Source: a virus. Taken from it: a DNA stretch of 21,036 nt. Positions within the stretch are counted from its first letter, which is position 1; each line of letters starts with the position of its first letter. The notes below the pieces were generated by a model. It did not search any database. It was not told the DNA's origin and was given only the letters and a program-made list of their open reading frames with translations. The position numbers and the translations under genes were made by a program. The stretch spans positions 1 to 21,036 of IMG/VR virus record IMGVR_UViG_3300031673_005317; one strand, given 5' to 3'. This document shows positions 912-17,723 of the stretch, one piece after another.

Positions 912-2459
912 ATGAAAGACTTTGCTACAAAGTTTTCTGATTACTGCTGCTCTGGACATGCCCTACTGTGTGTCGACACATTTGAAAAGGATCGGGCTAT
1001 CAGCGAAATTGCAAGGGTTGCCGCCACAATCGATCGTGAAATTTATATTTGGTCAATATCGCGTGGGTGGATTGACGATAAAGGAGTATCTGTCGGTGGT
1101 GTTAAACCTTCTGCTCCTGTATATGAACATGTGCAAGCCGTATTAGAGTTCAAAGAGGGTACAATATGTGTGTTCCGGGATTTCGGTGTATACCTAGATA
1201 GCAAAACGTATCCAAATTATGACGTAGTCATATCTTGGTTAGATGAATTGCGCAAGGTAGTGTCATCTGTTAGACAAACCATAGTTTTTGTGGGACCAGA
1301 GTTCGATATCCCAAAGCCACTACTACACGACATTACTAGCATAGATTTTGATTTACCGGGTACAGAAGCAATAGAAGAAAGAATTAGATTCACATGCAAA
1401 GATGTTTCAAAAAGCGATGGAAGTAAATTTGAGCTTGACGAAAAAATATTGCCAGAAATAGTTTTGGCTTGCAAAGGAATGACATCAACTGAAATTGTTG
1501 ACCGTGTAGCATTGAGTTTAAGAATACATAAAGACTTAGATGGCAATGCTATCAAAACTTTAATAGATGAGAAGGCTTCAGTAATTAATGCGTCAGGTAT
1601 TCTACAATATATCGAACCTAAAATAAAAGGCATGTCAGATGTCGGTGGGTATGAAGCTATTAAAAATCATGTCAAATTAGATAGACCGTGTTTTACCAAA
1701 TCCGCTCGTGATTTCGGGATTGATTACCCCAAGGGAATACTCTGCGTAGGAGTCAGTGGAACTGGAAAAACCCTAATGTCAATAGCAATTGCTGCGGAAT
1801 TCGGATTACCATTAATTACACTTGATATAGGAAGCATTATGGGTTCTTTCATCGGGCAATCTGAGGCGAACATGAGGCAAGCCATTAAAATTATTGAAAG
1901 CATCAGTCCATGCGTATTGCAGGTCGATGAAATCGAAAAATCCTTTGGCGGGAACAATGATCTTGATGGCGGTACTTCTAAGAGAACATTCGCCAGTTTC
2001 CTCAAGTGGATGAGTTCCAGAGAATCTGCTGTCTATGTTGTTGCAACGGCAAATAATGTTAGTGCCCTGCCTGTTGAACTACTTCGTTCGGGTAGATTCG
2101 ATACGCTCTTCGGTTTCGATCTACCAGATGAAGATGAAAAACAACAAATATTCAATATACACATATCTAAAAGAGGTAGAGACAGCGAATCTTTTAATAC
2201 TAAGAAACTATCAGAACAAGCGGTTGGTTTCGTCGGAGCCGATATTGAACAAGCGGTTAAGATGGGACTTAAAATTGCATTTGCTCAAAAACAACAATTA
2301 AAACAATCGCATCTTGAATCAGCTATAGAAGGAATTGTCCCACTAATCAGGGTGGAGCCAGAAAAAATTAAAGCAACTCAAGAATGGTGTCTGAAGCATA
2401 CCCAGATGGCAAATCCCAGAAAGCAAATTGAAAAAGTTAGAAAAGTCTCTCTAAATTAG
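912..2459 (+). CDS. Ycf46-like AAA+ ATPase
   Basis: This 515-residue protein resembles the Ycf46 family of AAA+ ATPases in length and plan. The N-terminal half contains the family-like stretch CVDTFEKDRA, then YIWSISRGW. The AAA+ module follows: Walker A GVSGTGKT at residues 280-287, Walker B with Asp-Glu at 339-340, a sensor-1-type ATANN, and LLRSGRFD supplying the arginine-finger region. All ATPase residues look intact. I chose ATG 912 because AGGGA lies seven bases upstream; a TTG at 891 would add seven residues without a good site. A homing-endonuclease-like gene follows after 8 bp. Ycf46 has been linked to inorganic carbon/photosynthesis control in cyanobacteria, but its biochemical role is unclear. 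Related DUF1257 and DUF2997 genes lie downstream. The family call is confident; the function is not. Confidence 0.85.
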   Translation: MKDFATKFSDYCCSGHALLCVDTFEKDRAISEIARVAATIDREIYIWSISRGWIDDKGVSVGGVKPSAPVYEHVQAVLEFKEGTICVFRDFGVYLDSKTYPNYDVVISWLDELRKVVSSVRQTIVFVGPEFDIPKPLLHDITSIDFDLPGTEAIEERIRFTCKDVSKSDGSKFELDEKILPEIVLACKGMTSTEIVDRVALSLRIHKDLDGNAIKTLIDEKASVINASGILQYIEPKIKGMSDVGGYEAIKNHVKLDRPCFTKSARDFGIDYPKGILCVGVSGTGKTLMSIAIAAEFGLPLITLDIGSIMGSFIGQSEANMRQAIKIIESISPCVLQVDEIEKSFGGNNDLDGGTSKRTFASFLKWMSSRESAVYVVATANNVSALPVELLRSGRFDTLFGFDLPDEDEKQQIFNIHISKRGRDSESFNTKKLSEQAVGFVGADIEQAVKMGLKIAFAQKQQLKQSHLESAIEGIVPLIRVEPEKIKATQEWCLKHTQMANPRKQIEKVRKVSLN

Positions 2460-2467
2460 GATATGCT

Positions 2468-3115
2468 ATGCCAAAATTAATTGATTTAACCGGAAGAAAA
2501 TTCGGACGGCTTGTTGTTATAAAACAAGTTGGAAAAGATAAGTGGGGAAGTTATAAATGGTTATGTCTATGTGATTGTGGTAATAAAACAATAATTATTA
2601 GCTATAGTCTTATAAAAAATAAAACTAAAAGCTGCGGTTGTTTGCAGAAACAAATTGTATCGAGTATCAATATGACACACGGCCATAGTAGAAGAGGTAA
2701 ATTGTCTAAGACCTATACAGTATGGGCATCTATGATTCAAAGATGCACTAACCCTAATTCTCAAGATTATTACCTTTATGGGGAGAGAGGAATTAAAGTT
2801 GGTAAAAAATGGATAAAATTCTCAAATTTCTTAGAAGACATGGGCGAGGTGCGAAAAGGTTGCCAGATTGATAGAATAAACAATAATAAAAATTATTGCA
2901 AATCAAATTGTCGTTGGACTACTCCTAAAATAAATAGTCGAAATAGACGAAATAATCGCCTAGAAACATATAATGGGAAAACACAATGTTTGGCCGCCTG
3001 GGCAGAAGAATATAACATTCCCTACCTTAGATTGTGGAAAAGATGTCAGAAATACGGCTGGCCAATAGGGAAAGCCTTAACAACCCCGGTGAACAAAAGG
3101 AGAAAAGTGAGATGA
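2468..3115 (+). CDS. free-standing homing-endonuclease-like protein
   Basis: A 215-residue protein with the layout of phage homing-endonuclease-like proteins. An N-terminal zinc-ribbon-like segment has CLCDCG near residues 33-38 and SCGC near 56-59. A central YTVWASMIQRC block follows, then YGERGIKV, then a nuclease-like core with QIDRINNNKNY and NCRWTT. These motifs recur in stand-alone phage HNH/AP2-type genes that spread by cutting DNA near their own insertion site. The catalytic residues cannot be assigned by eye. It sits tightly between the Ycf46-like ATPase (8 bp) and the DUF3150 gene (ATGA overlap). Its DNA is visibly more AT-rich than both neighbours, with AAT/AAA-heavy codons, consistent with an inserted mobile gene that landed without breaking the operon. 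Confidence 0.75.
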   Translation: MPKLIDLTGRKFGRLVVIKQVGKDKWGSYKWLCLCDCGNKTIIISYSLIKNKTKSCGCLQKQIVSSINMTHGHSRRGKLSKTYTVWASMIQRCTNPNSQDYYLYGERGIKVGKKWIKFSNFLEDMGEVRKGCQIDRINNNKNYCKSNCRWTTPKINSRNRRNNRLETYNGKTQCLAAWAEEYNIPYLRLWKRCQKYGWPIGKALTTPVNKRRKVR

Positions 3116-4107
3116 GCGAAACATTACAGAAAAAAGACGCTATCAATCTATTCGATCTAGGTACTCTTGTCAATCTTAAAGTGCGTATGTGGAGTGCCAG
3201 GAAAATGATAACCCGCACAGACCTAATAAGTGTCGGTTATGACCCAAGCAAACTTCCGGAAGATATTTGTAATCTTGGTCGCAAACTTCTAGTGCCTAAA
3301 GCCGAAATACAAGCGTTAACAAGAATTGAACAAAGGGCTAGGAAAGCCTTAGAGAGATTTTCAGTACCATTTGGTATCAGTAGTTCGCACTTTGTCCCAA
3401 TAAAAATGCTTCCCACCGTAGAAGGCCAAATTGGGGAACTTAAAAACGAATTTTTCATCTTAGTAGACAATTTCATCGCTCGTTTCGATAAATTAAAAGA
3501 AACAATTCAAAATAGCCATCCAGAATTTTGGGATAAATGCTTAAAAAATCATTACCCTTCAGACCCCAAAGCCCTAAGAAAACGATTCCAATTTAATTGG
3601 TACACATTTCGCATAGCTGGGATGGGGTCTATAGAAGAAACTAGTGTTGAAGAAATAATGGCCCGTCAGAACGTTCAAACCGAACGAGAAGGAGAACTAC
3701 GTCAGCAAATGCAAACAGAAGTTGGAGAATTTGTCGGAGAATACGTCAAGTCGATGCGAAATGAAACAATACGATTCTGTGATTTAATGACCGCTCGTAT
3801 TAGTGGTAAACCATTTGGTGACGAAACAGATGCAAAGAAGCTAACACCAAAATCTATTTCTTGTTTCCGTAAATATGTTGACCGTTTCCAGCAAATGAAC
3901 ATTTTCGGAGATGTAGAAATAGAAACCATGCTTACTGAATTCCGAAATATGTTCTTAGATTCGGGGGTTACATCTCAAGATTTTGAATCAGCTACAATAA
4001 AAAATAGTATAGAAACATCTCTCCAGGCTATCAGAAATAAAGCGGCAGCCGAAGGAGAAAGCGGGTCAAAGTTCATTGGTGAACTACAGAGACGAATCAC
4101 TTTATAG
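3112..4107 (+). CDS. DUF3150-family protein
   Basis: A 331-residue protein whose N-terminal half matches the DUF3150 pattern. It reads LVNLKVRMWSARKMI, then a Leu-Pro followed by LGRKLLVPKAEIQ, then a helix (RIEQRARKALERF) leading to a VPFGI/HFVPI segment. The C-terminal half is mostly charged helix. I chose ATG 3112 because AAGGAG lies about nine bases upstream; an in-frame ATG at 3034 lies inside the preceding gene. DUF3150 proteins occur in phages and often neighbour an AAA+ ATPase, but no activity is established. Here the nearest ATPase is the Ycf46-like gene, separated only by the homing-endonuclease-like insertion, so the two may be functional partners (inference). Confidence 0.7.
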   Translation: MSETLQKKDAINLFDLGTLVNLKVRMWSARKMITRTDLISVGYDPSKLPEDICNLGRKLLVPKAEIQALTRIEQRARKALERFSVPFGISSSHFVPIKMLPTVEGQIGELKNEFFILVDNFIARFDKLKETIQNSHPEFWDKCLKNHYPSDPKALRKRFQFNWYTFRIAGMGSIEETSVEEIMARQNVQTEREGELRQQMQTEVGEFVGEYVKSMRNETIRFCDLMTARISGKPFGDETDAKKLTPKSISCFRKYVDRFQQMNIFGDVEIETMLTEFRNMFLDSGVTSQDFESATIKNSIETSLQAIRNKAAAEGESGSKFIGELQRRITL

Positions 4108-4120
4108 AAAGGATCAAATT

Positions 4121-4627
4121 GTGAACAAAAATCCTGCCGAAATGCTACGAAGATTTGAAGAATTATGGGATAACGGTCAAATTACACACGGTTCAGCACT
4201 AAATAGAGAGGCAGTGTATGATTTATATAACGATATAGCTAATTATCTAACAGAACTAGATGATGCGAATTGTTGTCCAGATTGTTGTGAACCACTCAGT
4301 AACTGCGATTGCGACGAAGATGATGATTATGACGATGATTCGTGCTGTCTTACGTGTGGGGAATATTACACCCATTGTCACTGCACGCATAATGAAATGT
4401 CGCGTTGTGGTCAATGTGACGAATTATATTATGAAGATGGAGTGAAATTCTGCGAATGTGGTTGCGAACCACTTGGCGATTGTGATGATGATGAAGATGA
4501 ATTTTGCGAAGAATGCGAACGTGATTGCGTGTGTCACCGAGTAATACAAAGTGCCCAGGGCAACGAGGTGGTAGCTCCACCTCTGAATGCATTTGACAGG
4601 GCAAAGTGGATTAAATCACAGGAGTAA
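4121..4627 (+). CDS. Cys/Asp-rich multi-zinc-finger-like protein
   Basis: A 168-residue protein with a helical N-terminal third and a C-terminal region packed with Cys pairs (CPDC, CLTC, CHC, CGQC, CEC, CEEC, CVCH) separated by acidic runs such as DEDDDYDDD. Two segments look like an internal repeat: CEPLSNCDCDEDDD and CEPLGDCDDDEDE. This suggests several metal sites. I chose GTG 4121 because GAAAGGA lies seven bases upstream and the previous gene stops at 4107; an upstream TTG at 4076 lies inside that gene. It sits between DUF3150 and the Ycf35-like gene. The function is unknown. A metal-binding or protein-interaction role is the most that can be said. Confidence 0.75.
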   Translation: MNKNPAEMLRRFEELWDNGQITHGSALNREAVYDLYNDIANYLTELDDANCCPDCCEPLSNCDCDEDDDYDDDSCCLTCGEYYTHCHCTHNEMSRCGQCDELYYEDGVKFCECGCEPLGDCDDDEDEFCEECERDCVCHRVIQSAQGNEVVAPPLNAFDRAKWIKSQE

Positions 4628-4631
4628 ACAG

Positions 4632-5045
4632 ATGAGCAGATACGCCACCGTAAAGACCCAATTTAAGGACTGCAACGTCCTAGTAGAAGCCCTCCTAGAA
4701 ACGGGCAATTGGACTACCGAACAAATAGAAGTCCATACTAATCCACAACACCTTTTCGGTTACCATGGAGATCAACGAGCAGAGACAGCCCACATCATCA
4801 TTCGTCGAAAACATATTGGCAGCGCATCGAACGATTTAGGTTTCGTAAAAACTGAAGATGGTAGTTACGAGGCCATTATCTCTGAATATGACTCTGGAAA
4901 GTATGGGGCTACGTGGAGAGGACAACTCACGGGAAACTACGCCTTCCACAAGGTCCGGAGAGAACAGGAGTCTCGTGGAAGAAGTGTAACTCGTACTAGG
5001 TGTTCTAATGGTCATCAAAGGGTAGAAGTGATTGGATACAGATAA
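4632..5045 (+). CDS. Ycf35/DUF1257-like protein
   Basis: This 137-residue protein matches the DUF1257 (Ycf35) pattern over its whole length. It opens with SRYATVKTQFKD followed by LVEALLETG, then LFGYHGDQRAETAHIIIRR, a DLGFVKTEDGSYEAI strand block, a Tyr-Ala near the middle of the C-terminal half (GNYAFHKVRRE) and a basic C-terminal strand (QRVEVIGYR). ATG 4632 is preceded by AGGAG and lies 4 bp after the previous stop. DUF1257 proteins are encoded in plastids and cyanobacteria and have no settled biochemical role. With the Ycf46-like ATPase and a DUF2997 protein in the same block, it probably belongs to a shared module (inference). Confidence 0.8.
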   Translation: MSRYATVKTQFKDCNVLVEALLETGNWTTEQIEVHTNPQHLFGYHGDQRAETAHIIIRRKHIGSASNDLGFVKTEDGSYEAIISEYDSGKYGATWRGQLTGNYAFHKVRREQESRGRSVTRTRCSNGHQRVEVIGYR

Positions 5046-5049
5046 TATA

Positions 5050-5613
5050 ATGCAAACTAAACAAACATACCCGGAAGCTGGAAATTGGCACGAATTCGAT
5101 TCGTTCATCTGGTTCAAACGGCCTGACGACGCGGACGATTTCTGCATCTACCACTTGAATCATCGTGATTCGGGTCTACTGGATCAGTCCAACGCAGACA
5201 TCATAAGAGAAGCCCTAAAACCATTCGATAATGATGTACTTTTTATGGAATTTAGCCATTGGGCAGCCGGGTGGATTAACGCTGTGGCCGTTCGTGTAAA
5301 TACCGAAGCCTACAAAACACTTTGCGGAATCATCGACAGGTTATCTGAATACCCAGTCCTCGACGAAATGGAGTATTGCGAGCGAGAGTACGAAGCAACA
5401 TTGGAAAATATCAAAGATTCGTTTTATCAAGTAAAAGAAAAGATTGATAAGAATAAACTTCCAGAAGATTGGTCCTCCTACGCACATACGTGGTTTGGGG
5501 ATAACGATCAAAGCGCCGTAGAGAGTGTGGACGATCAGGGCGGATACCCAAACCATGATCAATTACTAGAGTGCATATCGTCACTGTGGCCAGAAGCAGT
5601 CAACACAAAATAA
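5050..5613 (+). CDS. hypothetical phage protein
   Basis: A 187-residue acidic, Trp/Tyr-rich protein of no family I can name. Recognisable stretches are HRDSGLLDQSN, FSHWAAGWINAVAVRV and YPVLDEMEY followed by an acidic helix. I recall similar unnamed proteins in other phages, but cannot assign a function. ATG 5050 lies four bases after the DUF1257 stop and has only a weak upstream purine tract. A TTG at 5032 that would overlap DUF1257 is an alternative start. Confidence 0.65.
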   Translation: MQTKQTYPEAGNWHEFDSFIWFKRPDDADDFCIYHLNHRDSGLLDQSNADIIREALKPFDNDVLFMEFSHWAAGWINAVAVRVNTEAYKTLCGIIDRLSEYPVLDEMEYCEREYEATLENIKDSFYQVKEKIDKNKLPEDWSSYAHTWFGDNDQSAVESVDDQGGYPNHDQLLECISSLWPEAVNTK

Positions 5614-5630
5614 TATGGGAACCAAAATAA

Positions 5631-5996
5631 ATGCTTACTCAACTAAGTACTGCAAAACGGGTTGCTGGGTATGGTAATGTCAAAAGAGCTAAAGTAAGTG
5701 CCATAGCTTTCACTTCAAACGGGCAAATCATAGCCAATGCACACAATAGAAGAGTAGGTGGCATACCAGGGAAATGGACAGAACACGCAGAAGAAGTATT
5801 AATCCATAAACTCAATAGAATTAGAGCATGGAATAGATATAGCGATATAACAATCCTGGTACTGCGTATAAATACTAAAGGTTTGGTTATGGCTAAGCCG
5901 TGCAAAAAGTGTCAACAGATATTGAAGCAGTATCCAGTAGAAGTATTCTATACAAACAGGGTTGGAGAAATAGTCCGATGGCATTGCAATTCTTAA
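5631..5996 (+). CDS. cytidine/deoxycytidylate deaminase-fold zinc enzyme
   Basis: A 121-residue protein with the zinc-deaminase signature. His52-Ala-Glu54 (HAE) supplies a zinc ligand and the proton-shuttling Glu, and Pro90-Cys91-x-x-Cys94 (PCKKC) supplies the other two ligands. The spacing and the surrounding beta strands (ITILVLRIN and VEVFYTN) fit the cytidine-deaminase fold. The length is close to a minimal deaminase domain. The substrate cannot be read from sequence: dCMP or cytidine deamination for dTTP supply is the simple idea and would suit ThyX downstream, but base editing of DNA or RNA is not excluded. Its last 19 bp overlap the BRCT gene. Confidence 0.8.
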   Translation: MLTQLSTAKRVAGYGNVKRAKVSAIAFTSNGQIIANAHNRRVGGIPGKWTEHAEEVLIHKLNRIRAWNRYSDITILVLRINTKGLVMAKPCKKCQQILKQYPVEVFYTNRVGEIVRWHCNS

Positions 5997-6352
5997 GTGA
6001 TACTGGGGTACTAAAAAATGCCGTATTCTGCTTTACCGGGAAAGCCCCTAAGCCACGTAAAGAGATGGCGGCTATAGCGAATAAGGCGGGTGCATCAGTA
6101 ACTCAGTCTGTAATTAATATGACGACAATACTAGTAATAGCTGATGCGAATAGTGTGTCGTCTAAAGCACGAAAAGCCCGTGAAAATGGGATTGATCTTA
6201 TTCGTCCCGAACAATTCTTTGACATGTGCAAAATGGTCACTGCATCGAACGGTGGTGATCATATTAGTAAGATTCATATAGAGTCACCAAAACCGATCAA
6301 TAAGCCAAATGAAAAACGGAAGCATTCATGTGTTCGGCGGATAGAATTATAG
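5978..6352 (+). CDS. stand-alone BRCT-domain protein
   Basis: A 124-residue protein that is nearly all one BRCT domain of the type ending NAD-dependent DNA ligases. It has the VFCFTGKAPKPRKEM opening, an internal Gly-Ala (NKAGASVTQSV), TTILVIAD, then a Lys/Ala-rich helix (SKARKAREN) and a hydrophobic IRPEQFF segment. A basic tail of about 35 residues follows. No ligase catalytic domain is attached. ATG 5978 begins exactly at the domain and overlaps the deaminase stop by 19 bp, so co-translation is likely. BRCT domains bind DNA ends or phosphoproteins, and a role in DNA repair or replication is inferred only. Confidence 0.8.
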   Translation: MALQFLSDTGVLKNAVFCFTGKAPKPRKEMAAIANKAGASVTQSVINMTTILVIADANSVSSKARKARENGIDLIRPEQFFDMCKMVTASNGGDHISKIHIESPKPINKPNEKRKHSCVRRIEL

Positions 6353-6365
6353 GGGAAACTGCAAT

Positions 6366-7331
6366 ATGAAAAAATGTTATGGATTCAACGATATAGCCCT
6401 GGTACAGAAAAAAAATATATGCAAATCACGGTCAGATGTAATAATAGAATCTGAAATCATCAGAGGAATAATAAGACCTATTCCATTAATTGCTGCCAAT
6501 ATGGCGTCTGTCACCAATGCAGGATTTTGCTCCCAACTGTATAAATTAGGAGCCATTGGTGTCTTGCATCGCGCATTTCATGAGCTAGAATATTTAGCAG
6601 AAGTTAAGGAATTGGCTTCCAACTGTCCAGTAGTCGCTGCTTCCATTGGTATAAGTGACCATTTTTTACTAAACAAGCTCATAAAACATGGGGTCAATTT
6701 GGTAGTAATTGATATAGCACACGCCTATTGCGACCCGGCAATGGATATGTGCAAACATATTAGACACATGTATCCACATGTTACAGTCGTGGTTGGAAAC
6801 ACAATAAACATCAATATGCTAGACGAGATAGATGGTATAGCTGATGGATTAAAAATCGGCTGTGCAAGTGGGAGTCCGTGCGAAACCGCTGTAACCGCAG
6901 GATGTTATGAACCACAATTCAGTGCAGTATTGAAATTCAGAGAACGCGCTCATCAATTGGGAATTCCAATTATATCGGATGGGTCTATCAAGCAACCGGC
7001 AGACTTTGTTAAGGCAATTGGAGCGGGAGCGTCGGGAGTTATGGCGGGGCAAATTTTTGCACGTTGCCCAGAAAGTGCCGCAACGACTGTGGATATAGAT
7101 GGCGTTACAAAGAAGGTATACTCCGGCATGGCGAGTCGTGCAGTCCAGGAAAAATGGAGAGGTAGTGTCCATAATGATTGTCCAGAAGGTAAAACCATTC
7201 TACTTGAAATGGGCGAATCATTAGAAAAATTGCTTATGCGATATTGTGGAGCATTGAGAAGCGGAATATCATACGCTGGGTTCAATAATGTTAATAATTT
7301 CAGTGCTAACTGTGAGTTTATATTGGTGTAG
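6366..7331 (+). CDS. GMP reductase / IMP dehydrogenase-family enzyme
   Basis: A 321-residue TIM-barrel enzyme of the IMPDH/GMPR family without CBS domains, which makes it GMPR-sized. Visible features are FNDIALV at the start, PLIAANMASVTN, a GAIGVLHR segment, the catalytic-loop region GCASGSPCETA with the likely nucleophile Cys172, ISDGSIKQPADFVKAIGAGASGVM for phosphate binding, the flap start YSGMASRAVQ, and EGKT followed by GISYAGFNN near the C-terminus. EGKT and the lack of CBS domains favour GMP reductase (GMP to IMP with NADPH). The loop differs from the usual GSxCTTR: the second residue after Cys is Thr, but Glu and Ala replace the neighbouring Thr and Arg. IMP dehydrogenase activity cannot be excluded. 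It would alter purine pools. Confidence 0.8.
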   Translation: MKKCYGFNDIALVQKKNICKSRSDVIIESEIIRGIIRPIPLIAANMASVTNAGFCSQLYKLGAIGVLHRAFHELEYLAEVKELASNCPVVAASIGISDHFLLNKLIKHGVNLVVIDIAHAYCDPAMDMCKHIRHMYPHVTVVVGNTININMLDEIDGIADGLKIGCASGSPCETAVTAGCYEPQFSAVLKFRERAHQLGIPIISDGSIKQPADFVKAIGAGASGVMAGQIFARCPESAATTVDIDGVTKKVYSGMASRAVQEKWRGSVHNDCPEGKTILLEMGESLEKLLMRYCGALRSGISYAGFNNVNNFSANCEFILV

Positions 7332-7340
7332 GAGTCAGTA

Positions 7341-7682
7341 ATGAAAATCAAATTAACACAAAAATGGAAACAATGCGGTTATGGTAAAGCATCGGACGCA
7401 TTCTGGAATGACATATATCTCCGGTGCGAAAAGGATTATACAACAAATAGACAGGTATTTATTGGCACTGCATCGTTACACCCAGTAGAAAGACCACTAG
7501 GCGAAAAACCCAGAATAATTATACAGCGTGGAGGTGTATCATGCAAACTAATTGGCCCTAGTAGAAAATCTGTTGCGAAAGCCAGGAGAGACGCGGAGAA
7601 ATTAGCAATTGAATTACTGCTTAATATAAGAGATGGCACGGATAGTCTTATAAAACAATATGGTATTATAAAGGATGACTGA
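7341..7682 (+). CDS. hypothetical protein with DAEK-helix
   Basis: A 113-residue basic protein of unknown function. Beta-strand-like segments are followed by a C-terminal helix (KARRDAEKLAIELLL). This layout, strands and then an Ala-rich DAEK helix, is shared with the protein at 11564-11923 and loosely recalls a double-stranded-RNA-binding or AP2-like fold. That resemblance is weak. AGGAG precedes ATG 7341 at a normal distance. Confidence 0.6.
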   Translation: MKIKLTQKWKQCGYGKASDAFWNDIYLRCEKDYTTNRQVFIGTASLHPVERPLGEKPRIIIQRGGVSCKLIGPSRKSVAKARRDAEKLAIELLLNIRDGTDSLIKQYGIIKDD

Positions 7683-7683
7683 C

Positions 7684-7938
7684 ATGAAAAAAACAATCTT
7701 AGAAATAGACGAAGCAGGTGACGTGCATTGTTTATACACTGATGACATTGATCTCTTTGCTGTCGGGCGAGTAACAAATATTCGTAAAGCAAGCAACGTA
7801 GAGTTTTCTGAACCGAAACAATGTTGGCAGGTCACTTCTCTGGATGGTGAAGTTTTATACGAGCACCCAAATAGGGAGGTGGCGATAGAATGGGAAATAG
7901 AAAACTTTTCTCCAAATGGACCTTATTACCATAAATAG
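7684..7938 (+). CDS. small hypothetical protein with a DUF2997-like opening
   Basis: An 84-residue acidic protein. It begins KKTILEIDEAGDV, much like the opening of the DUF2997 protein 60 bp downstream. It then diverges into DIDLFAVGRV, a RKASNVEFSEPKQCWQV strand block and EVAIEWEIENF. ATG 7684 lies just past the previous stop with AAGGATG upstream; an ATG at 7675 is too close to that site. The function is unknown. Confidence 0.65.
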   Translation: MKKTILEIDEAGDVHCLYTDDIDLFAVGRVTNIRKASNVEFSEPKQCWQVTSLDGEVLYEHPNREVAIEWEIENFSPNGPYYHK

Positions 7939-7998
7939 ATAAGAAAAAGAATTTAGTTAGTGAGTACAGCTAGGAACGGAGTGAATAAGGAGATCAGA

Positions 7999-8205
7999 AT
8001 GGTACAACAGAAAAAAGTAATAATTGACATCGACGAAAAAGGCAATTGTTTAGTGGAGGGCAAAAATTTTATAGGCCCCGAGTGTTCTCATTTTATAGAA
8101 GAGATAGAAGAATCCCTTGGAGAACGTATCTCTCAAACAGACAAGCCCGAGTATTGTCAAAGAGCGATAGTTAGAGATAGAAATATGCAGAGAGGTGGAA
8201 GATAA
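7999..8205 (+). CDS. DUF2997-family protein
   Basis: A 68-residue protein with the DUF2997 pattern: QKKVIIDIDEKGNCLVEG, then a Gly-Pro-Glu-Cys segment, a helix leading to ESLGERISQTDKPEY, and a short basic tail. ATG 7999 has AAGGAG at 7987-7992. A GTG at 7960 would add 13 residues but lacks support. DUF2997 proteins often occur near DUF1257 genes as far as I recall, and a DUF1257 homologue is present about 3 kb upstream with a Ycf46-like ATPase beyond it. No biochemical role is established. The conserved Cys suggests a link to a metal or iron-sulfur function, but that is a guess. Confidence 0.75.
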   Translation: MVQQKKVIIDIDEKGNCLVEGKNFIGPECSHFIEEIEESLGERISQTDKPEYCQRAIVRDRNMQRGGR

Positions 8206-14019: not shown

Positions 14020-14376
14020 ATGAAAATAAAACAACCAAACAATAAGTACATATGTGAAACAATTTATGGAAACGTGGTAGAATTCATTTTTGAAGAAAAA
14101 AACGAACCAGACTATATCACGAAATATTGGACTGTACAATTTACCAAAACCCCAAAGGGTAGGAAAAAAATAATAGCAGAAATTGTAGAAGAATTTGATC
14201 CAGACGACAAGAGAGTTATTCATATTTCTTTATATTTTAATGATAGTGTTACCAATAAAGAAAGGACGAAAATCAAAAGATATTTAACAGATGGATTAAA
14301 TGGTCTAAGCAAAGTAATGGTAAACGCAATAGAATTACATCCATGTATTGATGGTTTTGTAATTGATTTTGTTTAA
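14020..14376 (+). CDS. hypothetical protein
   Basis: A 118-residue Lys/Glu-rich protein with strand segments (YWTVQFTK and VIHISLYF) and a C-terminal helix. No family is recognised. AGGAG precedes the ATG. It ends 10 bp before the thyX start, and its stop overlaps the thyX ribosome binding site. Confidence 0.6.
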   Translation: MKIKQPNNKYICETIYGNVVEFIFEEKNEPDYITKYWTVQFTKTPKGRKKIIAEIVEEFDPDDKRVIHISLYFNDSVTNKERTKIKRYLTDGLNGLSKVMVNAIELHPCIDGFVIDFV

Positions 14377-14386
14377 GGAGAAAATA

Positions 14387-16159
14387 GTGAATTTTGTGAA
14401 TGAACCTAAAGTGGCACTTATAGGAAAGCCAGTTTTTGAAATCGATGGAGTCATGAGATTCCTTGATGAACATGGATATTCTTGGCCAGAACTTGAAGAA
14501 AAATTACAACAAATGATATCACTTGGGGATGACGATGCAGAATGGCTCGTGGAAACAGCGGGTCGTATGTGTTACCAAAGTTGGCCAAAACGTGGCGAGA
14601 CAATGAAGGGACGATCACACGAAGACCACATCAAACATCTGATCGAGGTGAAGCATGGCGCATGTATAGAGCACGCCAATTTCACTTTTGCAATATGGGG
14701 TATAAGTCGCTCCTTGTCCCACGAACTAGTTAGGCATCGTATAGCTTCTTATTGCCTAGCTGGTGATACGGTTATTCATAGTGGAAGTAGAATACATGGC
14801 AGGTTCAAGGGGGTGCTTAAGAAATGGACTATAAAACAATTGTTTGACTGGTCCCTAGATAAGAAAAGAAAAGGAAGATTAAAACGCATTTTGATTAGGT
14901 GTTTTGATAATGAAAAAATAATTCCTATAAATATTAAGTCTGTACAACAATCTGGATTGAAACAACTGGTTAAAGTTACTTTGGCTGACGGAAAATGGAT
15001 TAGATGTTCCAAGGATCATCGCTTTTTAACCAATATTAATGGTAAAAATATTTGGAAATCCATAAAAGAACTTTCTGTCGGAGAATTATTGGCTATTAAC
15101 GGGAAACCTATATATAAAGATATGGGGTGGCTTAGACGTAAATATCATGATGAAAATTTATCACAGAAAGAAATGGCTAAATTGGCAGGAGTTAGTCACC
15201 ATACTATTAGATCATGGATAAGGAAGTATAAATTGCAAAAGAGTTTTGGAAGTTGGAGCATAGGAAAAACACCGTGGAATAAAAATAAAACATATTGCGC
15301 CGGTTGGCATCATTCGCTGGAAACTCGTGAAACTCTAAGCCAAAAGAAAATGGGGAGCGGAAATCCACGATGGTTGGGAGATGCAGCCAGCCAACAAGCT
15401 GGACGCTTTCGGGCACAAAAACTTTATGATATAAAGCCGTGTGAAACATGCGGGAGCGAAGAAGATATATGCCGTCATCATATAGATGAGAATACTCACA
15501 ATAATGATGCCAATAATATTGAATTTTTATGCAATAGTTGTCATACAACGAAACACGCCGCCATGATGGGAAAATTCACACATACAATTGATTGGCAACC
15601 CATTCGGTCTATAGTGCCAGACGGAAAAGAGATGACATACGATATAGAAGTTGATCACGATTGTCATAATTTCGTTGCTAACGGGTTTATTACACACAAT
15701 TCACAATTATCACAGCGTTACGTAGATTCGTCCAGTGTAGCTTTCATAGTGCCACCCGCTATCCAGGAGTTAGCTAAAATAGACCAGAATGCTTATCAAA
15801 AGTGGATTGATCATTGCAAACAGTCAAGGTCGCTTTACGAAGAACTGACAAGTAAACTATCAGATATGTATGTGGATATTGAAAGTAAGTTGGAAAGGCG
15901 AAAAAAGGCGCGTCAGGCTGCAAGGTCTGTGCTTCCTAATGCTACTGAAACCAAGATAGTTGTCACTATGAACGCTAGGGCTATTCGTCATCTGATTGAG
16001 CTTAGAGCCAACCCCGCTGCGGATGTCGAGATTAGAAAATTAGCTGTCAAGATATGCCGCATCCTACAAGATAAAGCCCCACTTTTTGCCCATGGACTAG
16101 GTATAGTCAAGCTTGAGGATGGAACAGAAGGAGTCGAATCAAAATACCCCAGGGTATAA
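14387..16159 (+). CDS. thyX: flavin-dependent thymidylate synthase (ThyX), intein-split
   Basis: A 590-residue precursor made of 122 N-extein residues, a 316-residue intein and 152 C-extein residues. The spliced ThyX would be 274 residues. ThyX motifs are clear: EHANFTFAI, the start of the signature at ELVRHRIASY just before the intein, SQLSQRYVD just after it, and MNARAIRHLIELRANPAADVEIR near the C-terminus in two parts. ThyX makes dTMP from dUMP using FAD, NADPH and methylenetetrahydrofolate, so the phage would not rely on a host ThyA. I chose GTG 14387 because AAGGAG lies six bases upstream; upstream TTG/ATT codons lack it. The full signature RHRxxSx7S forms only after splicing, so activity depends on it. 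Confidence 0.93.
   Translation: MNFVNEPKVALIGKPVFEIDGVMRFLDEHGYSWPELEEKLQQMISLGDDDAEWLVETAGRMCYQSWPKRGETMKGRSHEDHIKHLIEVKHGACIEHANFTFAIWGISRSLSHELVRHRIASYCLAGDTVIHSGSRIHGRFKGVLKKWTIKQLFDWSLDKKRKGRLKRILIRCFDNEKIIPINIKSVQQSGLKQLVKVTLADGKWIRCSKDHRFLTNINGKNIWKSIKELSVGELLAINGKPIYKDMGWLRRKYHDENLSQKEMAKLAGVSHHTIRSWIRKYKLQKSFGSWSIGKTPWNKNKTYCAGWHHSLETRETLSQKKMGSGNPRWLGDAASQQAGRFRAQKLYDIKPCETCGSEEDICRHHIDENTHNNDANNIEFLCNSCHTTKHAAMMGKFTHTIDWQPIRSIVPDGKEMTYDIEVDHDCHNFVANGFITHNSQLSQRYVDSSSVAFIVPPAIQELAKIDQNAYQKWIDHCKQSRSLYEELTSKLSDMYVDIESKLERRKKARQAARSVLPNATETKIVVTMNARAIRHLIELRANPAADVEIRKLAVKICRILQDKAPLFAHGLGIVKLEDGTEGVESKYPRV
14753..15700 (+). mobile_element. ThyX intein with HNH homing endonuclease
   Basis: The insert is in frame and 316 codons long. 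It begins CLAGDTVI with Cys1 and has the block-B His in SKDHRFLT. It ends YDIEVDHDCHNFVANGF then ITHN, followed by Ser+1, so all splice residues (Cys1, His, penultimate His, last Asn, Ser+1) look intact. The centre holds a helix-turn-helix (SQKEMAKLAGVSHHTIRSWI, intein about 138-163), a NUMOD3-like basic stretch near 175-200, and an HNH domain near 230-267 with CETCG, CRHHIDENTHNN and CNSCH. It interrupts the Tyr-Ser step of the RHRxxSx7 FAD/dUMP signature. Confidence 0.9.
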
Positions 16160-16189: not shown

Positions 16190-17080
16190 ATGAGTTATGG
16201 GTATAATAGCATGGATGGATTTGATACATACATCACAACAGAATTGGGCTTATCACAGGAAACGCTTTCGGCGTATAAAAGAGATGTTCAGGAATTTCTT
16301 GATTTTATTGGGACGCAAACCTTGACGGCCCAACTTATAGAAATATTTGTAAATCATCTGAAACAACGTGGTCTAAAATCTACAACGGTACGAAGAAAAT
16401 GCATGTCGGTTCGGTGCCTGTGTCATCATCTCATAGGAATGGGTCGTCTAGACTCCAACATACTTGGTATGATTAATTCAATCCGTATAGATAGGAGAAC
16501 GTCAGATGCCTTGGATTCTAAAGATGTGGATACTCTCATTTCTGCTGTGGGGAAACGTACGCCCTTATTGCGAACAGCTAACATTCGCCGCGATGTCGCT
16601 ACTATACTAACACTGTATCATAGTGGACTTAGGGCGTCTGAGTTATGTGGTCTAAATTTGGATGACATAGATTTCTCTCGACGAACAATACGAGTGAGGG
16701 GCAAGGGCAATTGTGATCGAATAGTACCAACTACTCCCAGATGTGCCCAAGCGATTATGGAATATATAGATTTGGAACGCAAATCCGAAACCAATGCTAT
16801 TTTCGTCACAACCAATGGTCAAAGAATAACCCGTAGGGCTGTCAGCGACATGCTCACGTCTCTTTCTCGTCGGGCGGGTATAAAACACACTACCGCTCAT
16901 ATGCTTCGTAGAAGCTGCGCCACGTCTTTGATGAACAGCGGAATGGATTTGGAATTAATCCAAGTTTTATTGGGTCATCAAAATTTATCAACTACTCAAA
17001 CATATTTAGTAACTACCCTGGATCGACTCAAAAACATTCACCAATGTTGCCACCCTTTAGGAGCAAAGTATGAAGCTTAA
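16190..17080 (+). CDS. tyrosine recombinase (XerC/D-type)
   Basis: A 296-residue integrase-family recombinase. The N-terminal SAM-like core-binding domain spans about residues 8-95. The catalytic domain has every expected residue: Arg148 in GLRASEL, Lys172 in the RGKGN hairpin, His237 and Arg240 in HMLRR, His263 in LLGHQNL and the nucleophile Tyr272. The length and hairpin suit XerC/XerD. The upstream ribosome binding site is weak; ATG 16211 is an alternative start. Possible roles are integration, dimer resolution or DNA-end processing. No att site is visible, and the choice cannot be made from the window. It overlaps the ClpP-like gene by 11 bp. Confidence 0.92.
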   Translation: MSYGYNSMDGFDTYITTELGLSQETLSAYKRDVQEFLDFIGTQTLTAQLIEIFVNHLKQRGLKSTTVRRKCMSVRCLCHHLIGMGRLDSNILGMINSIRIDRRTSDALDSKDVDTLISAVGKRTPLLRTANIRRDVATILTLYHSGLRASELCGLNLDDIDFSRRTIRVRGKGNCDRIVPTTPRCAQAIMEYIDLERKSETNAIFVTTNGQRITRRAVSDMLTSLSRRAGIKHTTAHMLRRSCATSLMNSGMDLELIQVLLGHQNLSTTQTYLVTTLDRLKNIHQCCHPLGAKYEA

Positions 17081-17723
17081 TGGGAAGAAAGTACAGGGTA
17101 GTTACAAACATCATGAGGAACATGAAGAAGATACTGGGATAGCAATTCCGATACAACTGGACGAATTAGTAGACGAATTTCTACTACAAACACGTCGTTT
17201 GTTGGTCGTAGGCGAGATAAATGAAATATCATCCACCTATATCTGTAGTTATTTGCAATTGTTCTCATTAACAAAAGACCCCGTATATATGTATATCAAT
17301 AGTCCTGGGGGGTGTCTATCATCTGGGTATGCCATTATAGATCAAATGTTAGCTTGTCGGTACCCCATTTACACTATTATTCGTGGACAAGGCCATTCAA
17401 TGGGCGCTATGATCGCTGCGTTTGGCACAAAGGGACATAGGTATGCAACGCCGAATTCATCAATTATGCTCCATTCTGTTATCATTCAGAATCCACCAGA
17501 TTCTATTGATCGTCATACCGCGATGATGAATTATCTTATAGAAGACAGTAACAGAAAAGTTGCCAATCTAGCAAAAAGATTAAAGTTAACGACAAAACAA
17601 TTAACAGAATTAATGAATACAACTAAATGGATGTCTCCTAAGCAAGCGATTAAAATTGGTTTAATTGATGGAATATGGACACCCAGATTGGAACGATCTG
17701 TTTCTAGGAGTATTAAGAAATGA
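17070..17723 (+). CDS. ClpP-family protease with altered catalytic triad
   Basis: A 217-residue ClpP-fold protein. The nucleophile Ser110 is in GHSMGAM and His135 in IMLHSV, 25 residues apart as in ClpP. YINSPGG, the hallmark oxyanion segment, is present, as are a C-terminal MSPKQAIKIGLIDGI block and an N-terminal VVGEI strand. The usual third residue, the Asp four residues before the conserved Ser in the block RDxFMSA, appears to be Thr185 (NTTKWMS). The serine-protease core may therefore work weakly or need another residue. AGGAG precedes the ATG, which lies inside the recombinase gene. It would need a partner unfoldase, host ClpX/ClpA or a phage one. Phage ClpP-like proteins are also used as head-maturation proteases, but no capsid gene is near. 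Confidence 0.85.
   Translation: MKLNGKKVQGSYKHHEEHEEDTGIAIPIQLDELVDEFLLQTRRLLVVGEINEISSTYICSYLQLFSLTKDPVYMYINSPGGCLSSGYAIIDQMLACRYPIYTIIRGQGHSMGAMIAAFGTKGHRYATPNSSIMLHSVIIQNPPDSIDRHTAMMNYLIEDSNRKVANLAKRLKLTTKQLTELMNTTKWMSPKQAIKIGLIDGIWTPRLERSVSRSIKK

Follow-up and report, generated by a model that had tools for sequence, protein, structure and literature searches.

The window, by which we mean the whole stretch of DNA analysed, has 21,036 bases and is catalogued in IMG/VR as a virus record. The following features are considered here:

912..2459, plus strand: Ycf46-like AAA+ ATPase (Pfam AAA 4e-25; PHROG 8638 1e-108)
2468..3115, plus strand: HNH endonuclease between the ATPase and the DUF3150 gene, outside the module (PHROG 374 HNH 2e-70)
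3034..4107, plus strand: DUF3150 protein, virus-only fourth member (Pfam 7e-20)
4632..5045, plus strand: DUF1257 (Ycf35-like) core partner (Pfam 3e-10)
7675..7938, plus strand: small phage-only protein 'ph5', probable fifth member (family in 34 phage/viral loci)
7999..8205, plus strand: DUF2997 core partner with a G-x-x-C motif (GPEC, Cys29) (Pfam 1e-7)

The preliminary description had assigned three of these proteins to the Ycf46-like AAA+, DUF1257 and DUF2997 families, and profile searches upheld all three assignments; the coordinates were also right. The PHROG 8638 match covers residues 16-505, the whole length of the ATPase, whose reading frame may start at TTG 891 or at ATG 912. The DUF1257 protein scored 40.5 bits against a curated cut-off of 22.2 (Pfam PF06868, Ycf35) and was matched also in a genome-wide search (4.6e-12). 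DUF2997 scored 32.0 bits against 24.1 (Pfam PF11211), with GxxC present, and DUF3150 71.9 bits against 24.9 (6.7e-20, Pfam PF11348); the start of the latter possibly lies downstream of 3034, clear of the HNH reading frame. Because we had built our own profiles, the family test was repeated with profiles rebuilt without the window and its closest phages in the seeds. These leave-clade-out profiles matched the ATPase (2e-150), DUF3150 (6e-43), DUF1257 (2e-27) and DUF2997 (4e-14), as well as ORF 7675-7938 with the profile of 'ph5' (3e-10).

In the window the module is spread out by HNH endonuclease, deaminase-like, BRCT and IMPDH/GMP-reductase-like genes. Matches to the IMPDH-like gene were found in the window's closest phages only, and those to the HNH gene in the same phages and a few other viral loci. 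The related contig L008 has no HNH gene at this place and its DUF3150 begins 4 nt past the ATPase stop. Upstream of the ATPase in two relatives of the window phage (L008:3902-7101 and L174:2-3175) there is a four-gene run that resembles a ubiquitin-like conjugation operon, with a small ThiS-like protein (weak), a Cys-rich protein of ~425 aa and two proteins that resemble Prok-JAB and ThiF/E1, the latter at 4.7e-24. Elsewhere in the window, a ThyX-like ORF at 14363-16159 has an apparent intein by eye (..SYCLAGDT...FVANGFITHNSQ..).

The ATPase has an N-terminal region of ~240 residues without a Walker A motif, followed by a single AAA+ domain. In this domain the Walker A motif reads GVSGTGKT and the Walker B motif VLQVDEIEK, sensor 1 is N381, and the arginines are R392/R395. 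Residues K286, D339, E340, N381, R392 and R395 are invariant in a 7-row alignment (A6), and the motif residues are invariant in alignment A7 too. The features of an active ATPase of the AAA family (PF00004), namely the Walker A Lys, the Walker B DE, the sensor-1 Asn and the arginine finger, are all kept. The nearest solved chains of the AAA+ domain are CDC48/VCP, AFG2 and FtsH-class remodellers (E 1e-47 to 1e-39). Unlike these, the window protein has a single intact AAA+ domain with no fused protease, a family-specific N-terminal region and dedicated small partners, and it reaches at most 98 bits with the CDC48, FtsH and proteasome ATPase models, whose NCBIfam cut-offs are at least 500. In the libraries used no curated Ycf46 model gave a match, and the Ycf46 likeness is one of full-length homology: the window protein is 36% identical over residues 36-493, N-terminal region included, to a Planktothrix plasmid protein that adjoins DUF2997 and DUF1257.

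Several side observations concern this ATPase. In phage Tunturi_3 (L002:8329-9921) and in L177:5641-7116 the AAA+ core is permuted, so that the Walker B segment (DEIEK..WMQ) precedes Walker A (GVPGVSKS / GPPGAAKS). The two proteins are 38% identical, and each is followed by DUF1257, DUF2997 and a match to the DUF3150 profile; no description of permuted AAA+ domains was found in the literature searched. In four cellular loci (L045:8121-9638, L057, L075 and L076) the ATPase is preceded by a ~505-aa protein without Pfam match, possibly actin/Hsp70-like by eye, and by a ~65-aa protein. A ClpP-like protease ORF was seen by eye at 17070-17723 of the window, and nothing was found that ties it to the AAA+ ATPase.

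The preliminary description had also proposed that the three families belong together, and the co-occurrence was analysed from two directions. In the forward test the collections were searched by ATPase sequences only, giving 80 viral and 80 cellular loci. DUF1257 was found in 50/80, DUF2997 in 47/80 and both in 47/80 of the viral loci, and in 32/80, 32/80 and 25/80, respectively, of the cellular ones; these counts are lower bounds because many loci are cut by contig ends. Where at least 5 kb was available on both sides, both small genes were present in 29/49 viral and 15/38 cellular loci. All three genes share one strand in each of the 72 loci that have both DUF1257 and DUF2997, and the two small genes are usually adjacent, with a median gap of 9 nt in viruses and 33 nt in cells. 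About 60% of the cellular ATPase loci are without one or both small genes nearby, which suggests that some relatives either do not need the two partners or encode them at another place in the genome. The reverse test started from Pfam DUF2997, with which whole genomes were screened independently of the ATPase. It was found in 31/199 genomes of Planctomycetota (the phylum of L038) and in 2/398 of Pseudomonadota (the phylum of L066), and about 1.5 kb on either side of it (n=32) DUF1257 was present in 30/32 loci and the ATPase in 27/32.

Two further lines point in the same direction. On the ATPase tree ~10 independent pairs show a joint gain or loss of DUF1257 and DUF2997, and none shows a clearly separate one (p ~0.002). 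In the virus contig L168 the two families form one polypeptide of 172 aa (residues 1-118 and 113-171), in which Pfam scores the DUF2997 half alone, weakly, so that the DUF1257 half rests on our own profile. Such a natural fusion makes the binding of DUF1257 to DUF2997 likely. A second apparent fusion, in L195, was not counted, being probably a reading frame called too long in a draft assembly. The grouping of ATPase, DUF1257 and DUF2997 is confirmed as far beyond chance: neither a failure of the profiles nor co-occurrence at chance level was seen, with Pfam scores above the cut-offs and the forward and reverse tests, the tree and the fusion in agreement.

The other genes of the block had been named as candidate extra members. 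For DUF3150 this was borne out in viruses only, with 23/80 viral and 0/80 cellular ATPase loci. It occurs also in 9/398 Pseudomonadota genomes, there next to genes that by eye look P-loop/CobS-like and CobT-like. We infer that DUF3150 partners AAA+ proteins in general and that phages have joined it to the Ycf46-like ATPase. A probable fifth, phage-only member is the small ORF 7675-7938, as its family ('ph5') was found in 34 loci, all phage or viral, with 30/34 within 4 kb of the ATPase. The Cys/Asp-rich protein at 4076-4627, also put forward, had no homologue in any of about 176 loci and is dropped from the list; ORF 5032-5613 likewise had none in any locus. In the place of DUF3150 the phages RHph_I4, SM1 and HJ05 share a different protein of ~205 aa. 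Neither this protein nor the ~310-376-aa plasmid proteins that we tried as DUF3150 relatives showed significant similarity to it.

The same gene order (ATPase, DUF3150, DUF1257, IMPDH-like, DUF2997) is found in three viral contigs of 166-181 kb (L008, L174 and L175). The operon is also present in the named phages Rhizobium RHph_I4, Pseudomonas SM1, Aeromonas HJ05 and Tunturiibacter Tunturi_3, and the deposited annotation of RHph_I4 already names DUF1257 and DUF2997. Altogether 139 phage records contain a relative of the ATPase; in a corndog-type mycobacteriophage and a streptococcal satellite this relative has no adjacent DUF1257 or DUF2997. All three genes are found on Planktothrix and Anabaena plasmids and on the IncC plasmid record examined. 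There DUF2997 is annotated, and an unannotated 130-aa protein beside it (L010:8573-8965) is a divergent DUF1257 that Pfam misses and that our profile, built without it, matched at 1.5e-8. On the ATPase tree most viral proteins fall in one starred set of 66 rows (63 virus and 3 plasmid, 99* support), with 6 virus/non-virus changes in the tree. The viral ATPases are thus mostly one old lineage of their own, so capture from cells is infrequent. The idea of a portable module carried by viruses therefore stands in its first part, the carriage by viruses, and is refined in the second, from frequent capture to ancient spread.

The AlphaFold2 model of the window DUF1257 has a pLDDT of 89.1 and a pTM of 0.84; with it, Foldseek found nothing below E 0.001 in either PDB or BFVD. 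Comparison with TBP-like/KA1 folds reached a best Z of 3.9, and rows suggesting KA1, RnlA or Hsp70 domain likeness were at noise level. The DUF2997 model (pLDDT 57.5) is too poor for a fold search, and neither family had a significant sequence relative in the PDB. In the DUF2997 sequence G15, G26 and C29 are invariant in sets of 62-68 sequences. The cysteine is present in 99-100% of 62-76 non-redundant sequences, with a near-invariant GxxC, and such conservation of two glycines and a cysteine would be unusual for a mere scaffold.

Clustering of the neighbouring genes revealed a radical-SAM gene of the Fer4_12 type, of which four examples scored 9e-33, 2e-22, 1e-28 and 1e-21 with Pfam. Such a gene was present no more than 4 kb from the ATPase in 19/88 DUF2997-positive and 2/84 DUF2997-negative loci (Fisher p 1e-4, an optimistic value because the loci were treated as independent though some are related). 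The spread over phyla is a stronger argument for the link than the p value, as these loci belong to spirochaetes, actinobacteria, Planctomycetota, Verrucomicrobia, Proteobacteria and the phage contigs L105, L111, L123 and L177. In three spirochaete loci (L074, L080 and L087) a radical-SAM - AAA+ - DUF2997 trio sits within a contractile injection system cluster; in L087 the sheath, gp19 tube and CIS_tube genes were confirmed by Pfam.

Based on these data, we suggest that the window encodes a phage form of a widespread protein-remodelling machine of several subunits, in which DUF1257-DUF2997 would act as adaptor, a reading to which we give a probability of about 0.6. The Ycf46-like AAA+ protein would form an ATP-driven ring, while DUF1257 and DUF2997 would associate with each other and be the adaptor or regulatory subunits dedicated to it; to these the viruses add DUF3150 and, probably, the small protein 7675-7938. 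A particular protein would be pulled on, unfolded or taken apart by the ring; in phages it may be one of replication or virion assembly. A complex of the ATPase with the small subunits is likely, given the operon, the co-loss and the fusion. The remodelling activity we infer from the ATPase class. Points against this reading are the cellular ATPase loci without one or both small genes nearby and the pore-loop position, which is hydrophobic in most members but more often leucine (94/170 by a regular-expression count) than aromatic. The invariant cysteine of DUF2997 would be a functional thiol that serves as a ligand, in redox chemistry or as a site of modification. In many cellular lineages a radical-SAM protein or ferredoxin may be a working partner of the machine.

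That the three families are widespread and meet by chance in a gene-rich phage region might be supposed from the window itself, where the three lie scattered across 7 kb, interspersed with unrelated genes. Yet the correlated gain and loss on the tree, the gene fusion and the forward test all speak against this, and the reverse test leads us to reject it as exceedingly improbable. A role in anti-phage defence or phage counter-defence built on the AAA+ ATPase, for example as a relative of IetAS, is rather unlikely and has little support. The module does ride on phages, satellites and conjugative plasmids, and PADLOC IetA models match the ATPase (2e-24), but this match is limited to the AAA+ domain. 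Among the neighbour proteins scanned we recognised no protease of the IetS type, so that membership of IetAS is not indicated, DUF1257, DUF2997 and DUF3150 had no PADLOC match, and the cyanobacterial and plastid copies are tied to physiology.

The most interesting rival is a function in the maturation of Fe-S or radical enzymes. Here a cluster or a modification would be carried or received by the DUF2997 cysteine, with the chemistry coming from the radical-SAM protein or ferredoxin and the AAA+ protein serving to open up the client enzyme. We regard it as possible, at clearly lower odds than the remodelling machine. The invariant GxxC and the radical-SAM neighbour in five cellular groups and four phages are in its favour, as is fed7 in the duf2997-ycf35-fed7 gene cluster of Synechocystis (PMC4284462). 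The operon of the Synechocystis Ycf46 (slr0374) is up-regulated when iron is deficient and under oxidative stress (PMC7496141), and SufU/IscU gave weak, non-significant matches at the GxxC segment (E 0.8-0.9). However, a single cysteine per DUF2997 is unable to bind a cluster alone, and Fer4_12 is common, being present in 14/14 control genomes. The radical-SAM gene is moreover absent from the window's relatives, from IncC and other plasmids, from four named phages including RHph_I4 and from most phage and plasmid records tested, and so cannot belong to the core machine. This chemistry may be a specialisation of some lineages. More speculatively, and with somewhat less confidence still, DUF1257-DUF2997 could be the adaptor of an undescribed AAA+ class that opens clients for radical or Fe-S chemistry at the Cys-bearing subunit, with the phage and plasmid lineage rebuilt around DUF3150.

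The remodelling machine can be compared with several described systems. The cyanobacterial and plastid Ycf46 and the Synechocystis cluster resemble the window in ATPase class and in the DUF1257 and DUF2997 families, which adjoin each other there as well (PMC4284462); in contrast to that cluster, the window has DUF3150 and a phage-only small protein, with no ferredoxin or radical SAM nearby. Loss of Ycf46 lowers the activity of the carbonic anhydrase EcaB in Synechocystis (PMC7496141), and in red-algal plastids the losses of ycf35 and ycf46 share a habitat pattern (PMC5940233). The RHph_I4 operon has the same three families on one strand; its genes are contiguous, and a 212-aa protein replaces DUF3150 between the ATPase and DUF1257. 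A survey of jumbo phages proposed MoxR-vWA chaperone pairs (PMC7824862), which are likewise AAA+ proteins with partner genes in phages, and the position of DUF3150 beside P-loop/CobS-like and CobT-like genes in Pseudomonadota adds to the likeness. The window ATPase, however, belongs to the classic AAA class rather than to MoxR, and we recognised no vWA gene in the block. The freely accessible papers searched name DUF1257 or DUF2997 in three cases and DUF3150 in none, and those found describe neither the module of phages nor its partner DUF3150 nor the link to radical SAM. The co-occurrence itself is visible to anyone looking, since deposited annotations show the genes side by side.

To our knowledge, Ycf46 and Ycf35, which are conserved in cyanobacteria and many plastids, have no known biochemistry. 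The present analysis places them with DUF2997 in one mobile module of phages, resistance-plasmid backbones and many bacterial phyla. The gene set is real, largely unstudied and probably a travelling machine; it recurs side by side in many unrelated phages, plasmids and bacteria. It offers small, tractable systems for finding the function, such as the phage operon and the 172-aa natural fusion, and the radical-SAM link together with the invariant cysteine gives a first specific, testable chemistry for DUF2997.
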